Assembly: GCA_900317425.1 (NCBI GenBank)
Contig: ONGR01000008.1
Location: 1 to 64,000 of the forward strand
Reading direction: 5' to 3'
DNA from: an uncultured Eubacteriales bacterium
Lineage (GTDB): Bacteria > Bacillota > Clostridia > Oscillospirales > Oscillospiraceae
DNA: 64,000 nt
The translations under genes were made by a program, and so were the position numbers. Below are positions 60,574 through 64,000 of this stretch, one piece after another; position 1 is the stretch's first letter; the number at the start of each line of letters is the position of its first letter. The notes under the pieces were generated by a model. It saw only the letters and a program-made list of their open reading frames with translations, was not told the origin of the DNA and ran no database searches.

Positions 60574-60577
60574 TCAT

Positions 60578-60622
60578 TGGCACCCCCGGGAGGGTTCGAA
60601 CCTCTGGCCTGCCGCTTAGGAG
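60578..60622 (-). other. 3' half of tRNA-Arg(CCT), probable attachment site
   Basis: The minus strand reads from the anticodon loop (CTCCTAA, anticodon CCT) and stem GCGGC through a T-arm (GGTTCGAACC) and acceptor CGGGGGT to an encoded G-CCA, but the 5' half of the tRNA is absent: the sequence beyond 60622 is unrelated. A tRNA 3' half alone is the normal product of tyrosine integrase insertion into a tRNA gene (attL or attR). The rest of the island follows. Confidence 0.75.
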
Positions 60623-60860
60623 TTTGGTGTGCTCGATGAGTACGGTCCGGAACCGTTCATATGATACTTTCCCATCCGCTCAATGGCCTGCAGTACTCGA
60701 TTTTCATGGTGCAAATTGCACAAACTGCCGTATCCTGATGGGCCTTTCCGGGGCTCAAATTAGCAGGAAATTAGCAGGAAGCACCTTGGAAAACGCTGAT
60801 GGCAGCAGGAATTGAGCCGGCTTTTGTTACATTTGACGATGCAAAAATAGGGAGGTATTT
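60623..60860. other. Non-coding start of the island
   Basis: No gene is supported here. TTAGCAGGAA occurs twice in tandem near 60760-60780, separated by one base or so; its role is unknown. Confidence 0.35.
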
Positions 60861-61058
60861 ATGGATAATAAAGAGAATCGAACGCTGCCGGAGTCGCGTA
60901 CATATACAGTTGAACAGATCTCCGCTATGCTCGGCATCTCGCGTGGATCTGGATATGCCCTCGTCAAGGAGGGGCATTTCAAAATTGTCCGGATTGGGAA
61001 CATTATTCGGATTTCAAAGAAATCCTTCCACGAGTGGATGCAAAAGTATGATTTGTAA
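60861..61058 (+). CDS. Excisionase-family helix-turn-helix protein
   Basis: 65 residues, GGGAGGT before the ATG. SRTYTVEQISAMLGISRGSGYALVKEGHFKIVRIGNIIRISKKSFHEWMQ is the excisionase fold seen in clostridial elements. It would bend attachment-site DNA for excision. The partner integrase is not visible in the window and could lie at the far end of the island. Confidence 0.85.
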   Translation: MDNKENRTLPESRTYTVEQISAMLGISRGSGYALVKEGHFKIVRIGNIIRISKKSFHEWMQKYDL

Positions 61059-61070
61059 ATGATAGAGCAA

Positions 61071-61101
61071 GACGCCACGGGCAAAACCCGTGGCGTTCTT
61101 A
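61071..61101 (+). terminator. Terminator after the excisionase gene
   Basis: GACGCCACGGG pairs with CCCGTGGCGTT, followed by CTTACATT. From 61102 to 61310 I see no gene; the sequence is AT-rich. Confidence 0.8.
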
Positions 61102-61310
61102 CATTAGAATATCAATATGCAGATGAGATTCACAAGATTATGTTGCGGAAAACTATTATTTGCCATGAATTCCCGCGTCTAACCAGTAAAAAGGAGAACG
61201 CCACAAGGAAAGCCGTGACGTTAACGGCCTGAGCATAATAAATAACCTAGAGGCGACAGAATAAGAAATGAAATGTGCGTGATTATACATTTGCTGATAA
61301 GATTTTGCCC

Positions 61311-62027
61311 CTATTCTTTACTAATTACAATGCCCATAGGATTAAAATGTGCACTTTCTGCAACTTCATGTGGAGGATAATCTTTATTCAATGAAATAAG
61401 AAGGGGGGTTTTCCCAGTTGTAATTACTTTCTTGCAGAATACTTCGCCATCTACCTCCACAATTCCAATCTGTGCATTTTCAAGTGTTTTTTGCGCTTTA
61501 ACTAGCACAATATCCCCGGAAGAATATTGAGGCTCCATACTATCACCAGAAATTTTTACAGCAAAATCAGCAATTTGGTTTGTAGTTGTATAGGGTTCTG
61601 ATGATTCGTAAGTATCCATTGGGTTTCCGAAGCCTGCAGATACACTTAGGTTATATAAAGGAATAGTTCGCTCTGTTATAGTTGGCACCTCTGGGTGTTC
61701 CTCCTCAAATCCCGGGTCAACCTGCCTTACTAATGTTTCATAATGAACGTGATCGTGCGCTTTAATAAAATCAAGCAGTTTTTCAAATATTTCTGGTAGC
61801 TGCCGAATATCAAGAATGTTTTCAACGCCTTCGTGAGCGCCAACTAATCGTAAGTGGGATTGATTTTGTACTAGCCGTGTAATTGCCCTCACTCTTGTTG
61901 TATTATCACCGTCCAGAGCAATAGCTTTAGATAATATATCTTTGGTTCCAGGCATTTTAAAAGATGTAAAGCCTTCAATTAGTCGTCTTCCCATATTAGG
62001 GTAGCTTGCATCGTTGTCATGTTGCAT
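61311..62027 (-). CDS. S24-family (LexA/CI-like) peptidase, regulator
   Basis: 238 residues. The C-terminal half has the S24 fold with catalytic Ser in KISGDSMEPQYSSGDIVLV and Lys in EVFCKKVI, preceded by a possible self-cleavage region (SVSAGFGNPM). The N-terminal 130 residues do not show a clear helix-turn-helix, so DNA binding is unproven. Such proteins usually repress element genes until DNA damage. The codon use is AT-rich, unlike the neighbouring housekeeping genes, which supports transfer. No good ribosome site is seen before the ATG. Confidence 0.75.
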   Translation of the reverse strand: MQHDNDASYPNMGRRLIEGFTSFKMPGTKDILSKAIALDGDNTTRVRAITRLVQNQSHLRLVGAHEGVENILDIRQLPEIFEKLLDFIKAHDHVHYETLVRQVDPGFEEEHPEVPTITERTIPLYNLSVSAGFGNPMDTYESSEPYTTTNQIADFAVKISGDSMEPQYSSGDIVLVKAQKTLENAQIGIVEVDGEVFCKKVITTGKTPLLISLNKDYPPHEVAESAHFNPMGIVISKE

Positions 62028-62062
62028 ATTGACCCGTTGCGGGCTACAGATTATTTCAGGAA

Positions 62063-63199
62063 TTATTCATACGGCGCCAGTCTTTGCTCGGCGATCTTTG
62101 CATTCTGCCTGATACCACGAGCAAGCTTTATTTTGCGGATCATTTGCGCGTATTCTTCTGCCGGAATGGAACTCTCAAAGGAGATTGCACCTCCCAGTAA
62201 GCAGGCAGGCCACAAAAGCGTGGCTGTGTTGCCGTTTTCGAACTCCAGGGAAAGCCTCCCCGTTTTTTCGTCAAAAGAGGAGATCAGACCATAGCCCTTC
62301 GTCTTATGCAGCAGTCGGTTTCCCGCCGCCAGCTGACTTGTGAAGAAGGCCATTGCCCGATCCAGCTCCGCTGCCTCTGTCAGCGCGGTGGCAAATTCGG
62401 AGGCAAGTTGCTCAGCAACGCGCTTGTTCTCAGTGTATTGCTTTCGCTCGGCGGCATTTTTGACGGTATAGTGAATGCCGTCAAAGAGATGATAAACTGT
62501 GCTGCAGTAGATAACGTCAAATGCAAGCAGATGCAGATTCCCATCGGGATGCATTGGCTTGTTGGAGAGGGAATAACGGGTTTTGTTCAGGGCAATCAGC
62601 CGCTCGTTCTGCCGGATCCTGTCTACCAAAGCATCGCATAAGCGGTAGTAGTTGATCAAATGAAAGGACGTGCCGGATCCCAATTCGTCATAGAATTCCA
62701 CACATTCGGCATAGTCCTTCACCTGCTGTGCTTTGAAAAGATAGTACTGATCCGGATCATAGTATCCGGTGAGCATCATCGGAAGTCGAATACTCGGACG
62801 ATAGCGCCAGCTATCAGGCATATATTTCTCCAAAAGAGACTGACACTGATTAACAAAAGTTACAAATCGGCTCATGCGCGCTGACAAATCGCCATTGTCG
62901 TCTGTCAACAGAAGCTCTTTCAGCATGGATCTGACCGTATTCGGCTCGTGCCTGGCATAATCAGCCAGGGCATGGAAAGAGAGCTCATATCTGTTGTCGA
63001 TCGTCTGAGAGGTAAGGAGAACCACAGAGGCAAGTTTGGCGGGGAGCAGTTGGTCATCGGATGCCAGGGTCTCATCCATTTTGGAGCGAAACTGTGCAGC
63101 AATTTCCCACTTATAATACTCTTGGTTCACGTCATTATTCAGTTCCTCAAAGCGATCGGTATAGTGCTGAAGAATCTGATCTAGATTGCTATAATTCAT
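62063..63199 (-). CDS. Hypothetical island protein with Tudor-like C-terminal domain
   Basis: 378 residues from the ATG at 63199 (GGAGGG upstream; an ATG four codons earlier overlaps the ribosome site). The first part (ILQHYTDRFEELNNDVNQEYYKWEIAAQFRSKMDE, then LTSQTIDNRYELSFHALADYARHEPNTVRSMLKELLL) resembles the helical N-terminal domain of McrB/MrcB-type restriction proteins. The last about 80 residues (HKTKGYGLISSFDEKTGRLSLEFENGNTATLLWPACLLGGAISF) look like a Tudor/SH3-like barrel. No ATPase or nuclease motif is seen. It has its own promoter and lies beside a GIY-YIG protein and an S24 regulator. Function unknown; a role in defence is inferred only. Confidence 0.65.
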   Translation of the reverse strand: MNYSNLDQILQHYTDRFEELNNDVNQEYYKWEIAAQFRSKMDETLASDDQLLPAKLASVVLLTSQTIDNRYELSFHALADYARHEPNTVRSMLKELLLTDDNGDLSARMSRFVTFVNQCQSLLEKYMPDSWRYRPSIRLPMMLTGYYDPDQYYLFKAQQVKDYAECVEFYDELGSGTSFHLINYYRLCDALVDRIRQNERLIALNKTRYSLSNKPMHPDGNLHLLAFDVIYCSTVYHLFDGIHYTVKNAAERKQYTENKRVAEQLASEFATALTEAAELDRAMAFFTSQLAAGNRLLHKTKGYGLISSFDEKTGRLSLEFENGNTATLLWPACLLGGAISFESSIPAEEYAQMIRKIKLARGIRQNAKIAEQRLAPYE

Positions 63200-63265
63200 A
63201 GTTCCCTCCATTCAATTGTGTGACGATATGAAAAGGCAATCTGAGTTACCAATTATCTGTTAACA

Positions 63266-63293
63266 ATTATAATGTTTTTCAGATAAGCGTCAA
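63266..63293 (-). promoter_or_regulatory. Promoter of the 378-residue protein
   Basis: Minus-strand -35 TTGACG (63288-63293), 16-base spacer, -10 TATAAT (63266-63271). A TGTTAACA palindrome at 63258-63265 lies just downstream of the -10 and could be an operator. Confidence 0.75.
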
Positions 63294-63328
63294 GCCAGTA
63301 TCGTTACTGATGGCGATAGATAACTGCC

Positions 63329-64000
63329 TCATATGCGCCAGTTTGCCACTGGGAAGCAATTGTTCTTTTTCTTAAAAGCCTCAATCATCTGCCGCTCTTT
63401 TCCCGAGGCGTTATCACATGTTTCGTACGTCAGAAGAAGCATGCCTGCATCTTCTACCTGCCAGATCGCGCGGCCGCCACGATGGTTCTTTCCGTTGCCC
63501 CAGCCGTATTTCATATATTGGCGCAACCGTTGACGCAAGCCGTTTCGGCCCGCTGCTTTGCCGATATAGAGAATCTCCTTATCAGTGCATTGTGCGTACT
63601 TATCCGCCAGCTTTTCAGCTGTATAAAGCGGCGCAAAATGGTTGTATTGCTGCTCTGTAAAGTGAATAGACATGCCAGCTGGAACCAGAATCTGATATAC
63701 GCCGGAATCATTTGGAATGCTTTGACAATCTTCACAATACAGCGTTTGCAGCGTCGTGGCAACGGATGGCCAGATACAGAGCTCATTTAACCGACAGAAG
63801 AGCCGCAAGAGTGCGCCACTTGCGATACTTTCACTGATCAACGCACCGTTTTGAAAATGATCCCTTCGGAAGTGCCATGCGATACTGGCCAGAACGCAAA
63901 TATATGGCTGTACAGATAACCATTCTGGACTGACGGATGCAATGTCTTGATCATGCAGTTCCCACTTCTCAATGACCTGCCTGTAATTCACGATAACCAG
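63329..64000 (-). CDS. GIY-YIG nuclease-like protein (may extend past the window)
   Basis: At least 220 residues from a GTG at 63991; the frame is still open at the window end, so it may be longer. A helical N-terminal half (ICVLASIAWHFRRDHFQNGALISESIASGALLRLF) precedes a GIY-YIG fold: SGVYQILVP, then EILYIGKAAGRNGLRQRLRQYMKYG, and a conserved Glu in KERQMIEAFKKKNNCFPVANW. The GIY and YIG elements read GVY and YIG. Two CxxC-type cysteines lie just before (LYCEDCQS). GIY-YIG enzymes cut DNA in repair, homing or restriction. It is next to the McrB-like protein. Confidence 0.75.
   Translation of the reverse strand: MVIVNYRQVIEKWELHDQDIASVSPEWLSVQPYICVLASIAWHFRRDHFQNGALISESIASGALLRLFCRLNELCIWPSVATTLQTLYCEDCQSIPNDSGVYQILVPAGMSIHFTEQQYNHFAPLYTAEKLADKYAQCTDKEILYIGKAAGRNGLRQRLRQYMKYGWGNGKNHRGGRAIWQVEDAGMLLLTYETCDNASGKERQMIEAFKKKNNCFPVANWRI

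Follow-up and report, generated by a model that had tools for sequence, protein, structure and literature searches.

The window analyzed here is a 64,000-nucleotide stretch, bases 1 to 64000 of contig ONGR01000008.1 (107,223 bases), from the 1.87-Mb genome (39 contigs) of an uncultured Eubacteriales bacterium. Its end lies in a genomic island integrated at a tRNA-Arg gene. Inward from the tRNA repeat that bounds the island, the window carries genes for an excisionase-family protein, an S24 peptidase-domain protein, a 378-amino-acid (aa) reader-like protein (hereafter called the reader), and a GIY-YIG-like protein that is cut by the window end (Table 1). A first-pass annotation had recognized each of these features and had proposed that the GIY-YIG-like protein and the reader form a nuclease-plus-reader pair controlled by the S24 protein. 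Its readings of the single features were largely borne out, the GIY-YIG assignment only in part, and neither the pairing nor the S24 control stood. Our main finding concerns the reader, in which a domain related to the N terminus of McrB is joined to a Tudor domain in a protein that has no GTPase.

The reader combines a McrB-type N-terminal domain with a Tudor domain

The reader gene has its start codon at 63199, or at 63211 if a longer protein of 382 aa is assumed; our alignments and structure model were built on residues 2 to 378. The window reader, whose structure was predicted with confidence (mean predicted local distance difference test score [pLDDT] of 95.2, predicted template modeling score of 0.80), comprises a McrB-type N-terminal domain extending to residue ∼236 to 240, a long helix, a Tudor domain (residues ∼289 to 341), and C-terminal helices.

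The first-pass annotation had noted that the N terminus recalls McrB/MrcB proteins. We found that genome G150 encodes an 882-aa McrB (AAA_5, E 6.1e-24), directly followed by McrC (PF10117, E 1.9e-39), that starts with a domain like the N terminus of the reader. When used as a query, this G150 domain retrieved the window reader (E 7.1e-12) and had matches in 13 of 295 genomes of the order. It brought in 12 loci (L105 to L116). In 8 of these, a Walker A motif occurs in a large open reading frame (ORF), and 7 of the 8 ORFs show the sequence MNTAD in the part retrieved. Alignment with hhalign of 26 readers against 8 McrB N-terminal domains extended over 221 columns, with a probability of 99.95 and an E value of 3.6e-38. 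At the level of sequence profiles, the homology of the reader, up to residue ∼236, with the N-terminal domain of Clostridial McrBs therefore holds. No Pfam McrB-N model played a part in this result, as none was matched by the window reader or by the 8 McrB N-terminal domains. The whole reader protein has no model in Pfam, NCBIfam, or PADLOC, its N-terminal domain has none in Pfam, and a fold search of PDB and BFVD returned no usable match covering the helical N-terminal part.

The reader thus shares with McrBC, a type IV restriction system, an N-terminal domain homologous to that of Clostridial McrBs that carry an AAA+ domain, but it differs from McrBC in three respects. It lacks the GTPase, since no AAA match was obtained for the window reader or among the 25 families shown for the 26 members, in agreement with the first-pass view of an undescribed McrB-related protein without this domain. 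No McrC was found among the 14 island ORFs scanned, and the McrB-type domain sits on a Tudor protein.

The C terminus, which had been described as Tudor-like, is a Tudor domain of the PcrA/UvrD type. PF21196 (PcrA_UvrD_tudor) was matched by 14 of the 26 members, the window member not among them, with a best E value of 8.9e-6, and the family profile found UvrD/PcrA Tudor chains in PDB at E values of 0.006 to 0.02. A Foldseek search with the C-terminal barrel returned the Tudor domain of PHF1 (E 0.13) and UvrD C-terminal domains (E 0.26 to 0.41), which superpose on the barrel with a root mean square deviation of 1.5 to 1.8 over 41 columns. Among the 295 genomes of the order, the family profile matched 90. 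By eye, these comprise 4 genomes with stand-alone readers (the one in G201 is interrupted), 8 with McrB-size ORFs, 1 with a broken fragment (G229), and 77 matched through the Tudor part alone. By hand count, 70 of the 93 Tudor-only rows are ORFs of 688 to 1,026 aa, the size of PcrA/UvrD helicases. The reader has the C-terminal barrel in common with these helicases, by family profile and by fold, but has no helicase motor in its 378 aa.

A promoter-like site lies in front of the reader gene, between it and the GIY-YIG-like gene. It matches 11 of 12 consensus bases, a consensus match only, and is the best of 15 sites found in a scan of the region, compared with 7.7 sites in shuffled sequences. 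An imperfect palindrome (63253 to 63286, 76% complementary) overlaps this site and could be an operator for a protein other than the S24 protein.

A stand-alone, mainly Clostridial family with varied neighbors

Readers from 4 relatives aligned with the window protein at 29 to 49% identity, and 25 readers aligned at 21 to 49%. We scanned a collection with one genome per species (84,980 species) using short conserved peptides as probes and found at least 31 reader loci; probes of this kind yield a minimum number and may bias the taxonomic range. All loci are labeled as Clostridia groups or as Bacillota/Firmicutes only. Three of them (L069, L074, and L080) are on the same contigs as L052 to L054. 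The reader ORF measures 365 to 398 aa in 23 of the 31 loci and is cut by a contig end, extended, or fused in the others. We detected no reader among 50,697 phage records at an E value of 1e-5, and 56 stretches of viral contigs fitted a pattern, none of which was confirmed. The plasmid collection yielded one record, S. variabile OY725878. PADLOC matched nothing in the window reader, and for the 26 members it gave single-member matches alone, with a best E value of 0.014.

We clustered neighboring ORFs of at least 90 aa within 5 kb of the reader in 33 loci (the 31 scan loci, the window, and G007), leaving the reader family and antisense ORFs out of the counts below; 5 kb was present on both sides in only 18 of the 32 loci other than the window, and the names given to neighbors rest on one or two scanned members per cluster. 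WYL-type proteins were found 7 times, GmrSD-type, Fic-type, and DUF6508-type proteins 3 times each (the last in the window, L077, and L082), an unnamed family of ∼220 aa 5 times, an unnamed family of ∼320 aa 4 times, and large unnamed ORFs of ∼1,000 aa 3 times. Since L086 and L087 are near-identical and further close pairs occur within L063 to L093, these are upper counts. The reader forms a stand-alone, unnamed, mainly Clostridial family encoded beside varied genes, some of them of defense type.

Several of these neighbors were recorded in their own right. The ∼220-aa family occurs at L064:5227-5910, L065:3943-4617, L093:7292-7957, L066:9213-9833, and in L085, and its gene is directly upstream of the reader in L064, L065, and L093; two members gave weak PADLOC matches to REase_II (E 0.0023) and PDC-M02A (E 0.009). 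Pfam scans of two members lent no support to an assignment of the ∼320-aa family as a PD-(D/E)XK nuclease. At L082:2186-3415, a NADAR domain is fused to a DUF6508-like domain near the reader gene. The reader gene has a KilA-N protein gene among its neighbors in G017, and the copy on a Subdoligranulum record adjoins a C5-methylase-like ORF and one like a Vsr-type nuclease (both by eye).

The S24 protein is a poor repressor candidate

The S24 peptidase domain named in the first-pass annotation is present, and the protein was supposed to control the two genes that follow. However, no helix-turn-helix (HTH) family was matched at E values up to 1 in four libraries, which makes the protein a poor repressor candidate. 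Its N-terminal 100 residues instead match the tail of PF13166 (AAA_13; positions 633 to 692 of 713, E 2.4e-5) and the tail of PADLOC PDC-S06 (positions 648 to 736 of 740, E 3.8e-12). The same stretch ends a Cupriavidus ORF of 792 aa that has a P-loop-like NGTGKT near its start. Within 199 related genomes, this N terminus was found in the own genome only and in none of the 198 others. Judged by sequence, the S24 protein appears to be a fusion of an AAA_13 tail with an autoprotease domain. The protein shares with the LexA/CI/UmuD family the S24 domain, the catalytic pattern, and a cleavage-like Ala-Gly site, but differs from it in the AAA_13-type N-terminal part and in having no HTH match.

We give about even chances to the possibility that the protein is a UmuD-like or signaling autoprotease, or a relic fusion, and not a repressor. 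Its best solved match is UmuD (E 1.1e-6), and the alignment with UmuD places Ser and Lys at the expected positions along with the Ala-Gly site (residues read by eye). The AAA_13-type N terminus also favors this possibility, as do a 511-aa Y-family-polymerase-like ORF (by eye) and a YolD-like protein (below cut-off) encoded in the same island. On the other side, a remote HTH could escape detection, and repressors of phages and satellite phages match the protein, over residues 72 to 238 at most. S24-like genes were found in 2 of the 32 other reader loci, ∼2.6 kb (L092) and ∼6.4 kb (L093) from the reader.

The GIY-YIG-like gene is probably a separately mobile cassette

The description of the protein as GIY-YIG nuclease-like stood as far as its motifs are concerned, but its scores against PF01541 (15.0 and 14.5 bits) are under the gathering cut-off of 22.6. 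The motif residues comprise GVY from 157, LYIG at 201 to 204, the Arg in LRQRL from 212, the Glu in KERQ from 258, and the Asn in VANW from 275. In an alignment of 7 rows, among which L059 and L062 are short and L062 is without the GIY strand, LYIG and the final Asn are kept in 7 of 7 rows and, by eye, the Arg and the Glu in 6 of 7, L060 having lost both. Conservation of these residues, which the first-pass annotation had singled out as a check, was thus found for the most part. The C-terminal half was modeled with a pLDDT of ∼82 to 92 and a plausible order of strands and helices, with no Foldseek match, and the N-terminal half was poorly modeled. This N-terminal half is DUF6508-like, weakly so for the window protein (E 0.092) and above cut-off for the L058 protein (E 5.3e-6). 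The protein therefore has the GVY, LYIG, Arg, Glu, and Asn pattern of GIY-YIG endonucleases in its C-terminal half but differs from them in its sub-cut-off Pfam score, in the spacing of ∼40 residues that separates GIY from YIG, and in its DUF6508-like N-terminal half.

A block of 955 bp (63338 to 64291) is common to the window's contig and genome G026 at 93.6% identity. It extends from ∼120 bp before the start codon to the stop codon and so corresponds to the gene with its own upstream region. Between the two copies, the nonsynonymous divergence (dN) of 0.035 compared with a synonymous divergence (dS) of 0.177 suggests selection on the protein. In G026, the gene is located by a UDG-like gene (below cut-off) and genes read as type I restriction-modification. 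The copy present in G017 is missing from the sibling genome G013, the flanks being 94% identical. In G018, it sits between genes read as parE and parC, which are ∼950 to 1,130 bp apart, compared with ∼120 bp (G008), 23 bp (G010), and 11 bp (G005); the G018 case rests on these gene-distance coordinates because the alignment of G018 with G008 is poor. Lone intergenic copies were seen at L059:9971-10480, L057:9775-10617, and L056:8004-8846. Short interspersed repeats found in many genomes of the genus (e.g., L057:9423-9722 and L057:10703-10756) adjoin the insertions in G017 and G018. We read the GIY-YIG-like gene as a single-gene cassette that moves on its own and lies next to the reader by chance.

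Phage T4 is known to have free-standing homing endonucleases of the GIY-YIG type (PMC2988022), and the gene studied here may tentatively be viewed as a free-standing homing-type nuclease gene spreading among intergenic sites, with the reader as an unrelated bystander. The single-gene block common to G026, with its low dN relative to dS, and the presence or absence of the gene at the same place in siblings (G017 versus G013; G018 versus G008, G010, and G005) speak for this interpretation, which is drawn from sequence comparison and to which we assign somewhat less than an even chance. Several observations weigh against it. The G013 site is not clean, since terminator-like repeats there flank ∼230 bp of other DNA; repeated intergenic DNA is likewise part of the inserts in G017 and G018; the poor G018-G008 alignment weakens that comparison; and no recognition site was identified for the nuclease. 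Moreover, an ordinary single-gene defense or repair gene could spread in just this way.

The tRNA-Arg island is a mosaic

Reading the contig past position 64000 confirmed that the island inserted at tRNA-Arg, as proposed in the first-pass annotation, is real and extends beyond the window end. An intact tRNA-Arg(CCT) gene, whose 3′ part matches the 46-bp repeat, was found by ARAGORN at contig positions 81942 to 82018, and the repeat and the intact gene bound ∼21.4 kb of DNA with a lower GC content than its flanks. The compositional shift is already visible in the window, where the GC content is 0.60 to 0.68 from 50000 to ∼60500 and 0.38 to 0.51 from 60750 on. The excisionase-family protein scored 40.8 bits against TIGR01764 (cut-off, 28.8). 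The 3′ direct repeat, the intact tRNA, an integrase at the far end, and an excisionase-type gene at the near end are all as in tRNA-integrated islands with a tyrosine integrase, from which this island differs in an integrase ORF that looks short and in additional 5′-part remnants at the tRNA site. These are two decayed tRNA-Arg(CCT) 5′ parts upstream of the intact tRNA (contig positions ∼82111 to 82066 and ∼82251 to 82231, beyond the window), the outer of which follows a promoter-like region common to G025. They suggest repeated integration at one tRNA site and that the tRNA-Arg(CCT) working now is a later copy. Two of the relatives compared, G009 and G025, lack the island but share the tRNA and the right flank; their left flank differs, and a clean empty site was not obtained.

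Fourteen island ORFs were scanned for families, and others were read by eye. The setting of the reader includes a Fic protein gene and genes of the type III restriction-modification type. The latter look broken or short, and so, possibly, does the integrase. The Ku, ATP-dependent DNA ligase, Y-family-polymerase-like, and YolD-like genes lie side by side at contig positions 74019 to 77911. The island is a mosaic, and its left end consists of independent genes rather than one module.

Table 1. Features of the window and of the island that continues beyond it
Feature	Position	Strand	Basis or remark
tRNA-Arg(CCT) 3′ part, left attachment repeat	60577..60622	-	46 bp, 98% identity; ARAGORN
Excisionase-family HTH_17 protein, 65 aa	60861..61058	+	TIGR01764 E 2.1e-10; PF12728 E 1.7e-11
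S24 peptidase-domain protein, N terminus matching AAA_13 C-terminal tail	61311..62027	-	PF00717 E 6.9e-22
Orphan reader-like protein, 378 aa	62063..63199	-	Profile, fold, and homology comparisons
Promoter-like site TTGACG-N16-TATAAT	63293-63266	-	Consensus match
DUF6508-like plus GIY-YIG-like protein, 280 aa	63329..64000 in window; full gene contig 63329-64171	-	ORF, family scan
Fic plus HTH_17 protein	Island		Family scan
ResIII ORF, 765 aa	Island		Family scan
RE_endonuc ORF, separate, 192 aa	Island		Below cut-off
ORF of 277 aa	Island		No family match
N6_N4_Mtase ORF, 281 aa	Island		Aligns only with first part of type III methylase models (465-983 positions)
GntR; ATP-dependent DNA ligase; Ku	Island		Family scan
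YolD-like protein	Island		Below cut-off
Y-family-polymerase-like ORF, 511 aa	Island		Read by eye
ABC-type genes, GNAT-like ORFs, methyltransferase-like ORF	Island		Read by eye
Phage-integrase-family ORF, 278 aa	Island far end, adjoining intact tRNA		Family scan

A possible adaptor role for the reader

We favor, by a modest preference, the view that the reader is an adaptor that acts independently of the GIY-YIG-like gene, with the McrB-type N-terminal domain placed on a Tudor domain instead of a GTPase. The helical N-terminal domain would recognize either a partner or some feature of foreign nucleic acid; we propose this by analogy with E. coli McrB, whose N-terminal domain is described as binding methylcytosine (PMC11090510). 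The Tudor end may dock on a protein of the host, for instance RNA polymerase or UvrB, and the docked reader would bring in an effector encoded nearby, such as GmrSD, Fic, DUF6508, or others, differing from one genome to another. According to PMC8318588, the C-terminal domain of PcrA binds a TGE-bearing motif found in RNA polymerase and UvrB, and the same docking may apply to the Tudor domain of the reader. The nucleic acid reading, the docking partner, and the defense role are what we infer, from an architecture, homologies, and a distribution that are observed, as is the absence of pairing within our searches.

Several points weigh against this adaptor reading. The N-terminal domain, for which nucleic acid binding is proposed by analogy, had no usable fold match in PDB. 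The window reader taken alone has no Pfam match to PF21196, and the PDB matches of the Tudor part in Foldseek all have E values above 0.1, the eukaryotic PHF1 coming before UvrD and none reaching 0.001. No single partner recurs in most reader loci, in a count that took close loci apart and had no random-locus control. Some copies, such as that in L079, are located amid genes read as housekeeping. Finally, the DUF6508 proteins encoded near the reader in L077 and L082 leave open a weaker link between the reader and the N-terminal half of the GIY-YIG-like protein.

The alternatives weighed in this work, including those for the S24 protein and the GIY-YIG-like gene given above, are four in number, concern different genes, and are not mutually exclusive. 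That the reader is instead a host factor of the housekeeping type, e.g., in transcription-repair coupling, and has no part in defense appears unlikely to us. The involvement of the PcrA Tudor domain in RNA polymerase and UvrB binding (PMC8318588) would fit such a factor, as would the copies amid housekeeping genes. However, the reader is patchy, being present as a stand-alone gene in 4 of the 295 genomes of the order (one interrupted, by eye); its N-terminal domain is common to McrB; and GmrSD, KilA-N, and WYL neighbors occur in some reader loci. We also considered a transcription-coupled version of the adaptor, in which the McrB-type domain, tethered via the Tudor domain to RNA polymerase (or UvrB), would inspect foreign DNA during transcription and call in the local effector. 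This more specific proposal is speculative, and we regard it as distinctly improbable.

Least of all do we retain the idea that the GIY-YIG-like protein and the reader form one defense unit repressed by the S24 protein, which is very improbable. The two genes are adjacent and co-oriented, the GIY-YIG motif residues are mostly retained, and a DUF6508 homolog of the GIY-YIG-like protein's N-terminal half is encoded near the reader in L077 and L082, all of which would favor a pair. Nevertheless, a search for co-occurrence gave little room for one. In the 199 relatives, the reader query matched 6 genomes (the G150 match being the McrB) and the GIY-YIG-like family 8, and both were present only in the own genome and in G017, where they are on separate contigs (C4 and C17). 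In the 295 genomes of the order, the GIY-YIG-like family occurred in 3, and both were found as stand-alone genes in the own genome only. The GIY half had no match at an E value of ≤0.001 in the 32 other reader loci, 18 of which offer 5 kb on both sides; the sole match, in L066 (E 0.006, 29.5% identity over 88 residues), falls within a 990-aa ORF taken as an antisense frame and is likely due to chance. Conversely, the reader had no match at an E value of 0.1 in 9 loci with other copies of the GIY-YIG-like gene. The lone block common to G026, the promoter-like site of the reader gene itself, and the lack of an HTH match in the S24 protein also argue against a pair under S24 control, and we reject it on the distribution of the two genes and the lone mobile block.

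Novelty and significance

What is new here is a known McrB domain in a stand-alone, GTPase-free, Tudor-linked architecture, of which we found no description in the literature searched; we claim novelty for the reader and not for the GIY-YIG-like protein. In a literature set without subscription papers or bioRxiv preprints, we found no paper on DUF6508, on standalone McrB N-terminal proteins of Clostridia in defense islands, or on DUF262 with a PcrA Tudor domain in restriction. PMC2614495 was the one match for McrB and Tudor in phage defense, and papers connecting GIY-YIG with anti-phage restriction and defense islands were found. The words MrcB, Tudor, standalone, and GIY-YIG are absent from the main text of the CoCoNuT census (PMC11090510).

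The GIY-YIG-like gene carries a caution, as adjacency at one locus did not mean a conserved pair. If the adaptor proposal is true, the specificity end of a type IV system would be used without its motor and tied to the machinery of transcription or repair. This would provide a new route for coupling immune sensing to an effector. In the transcription-coupled version, type IV recognition would be uncoupled from the McrB GTPase. Whatever its function, the reader is a well-modeled protein family, present in many Clostridia and with no whole-protein model in Pfam, NCBIfam, or PADLOC, and is a testable candidate.

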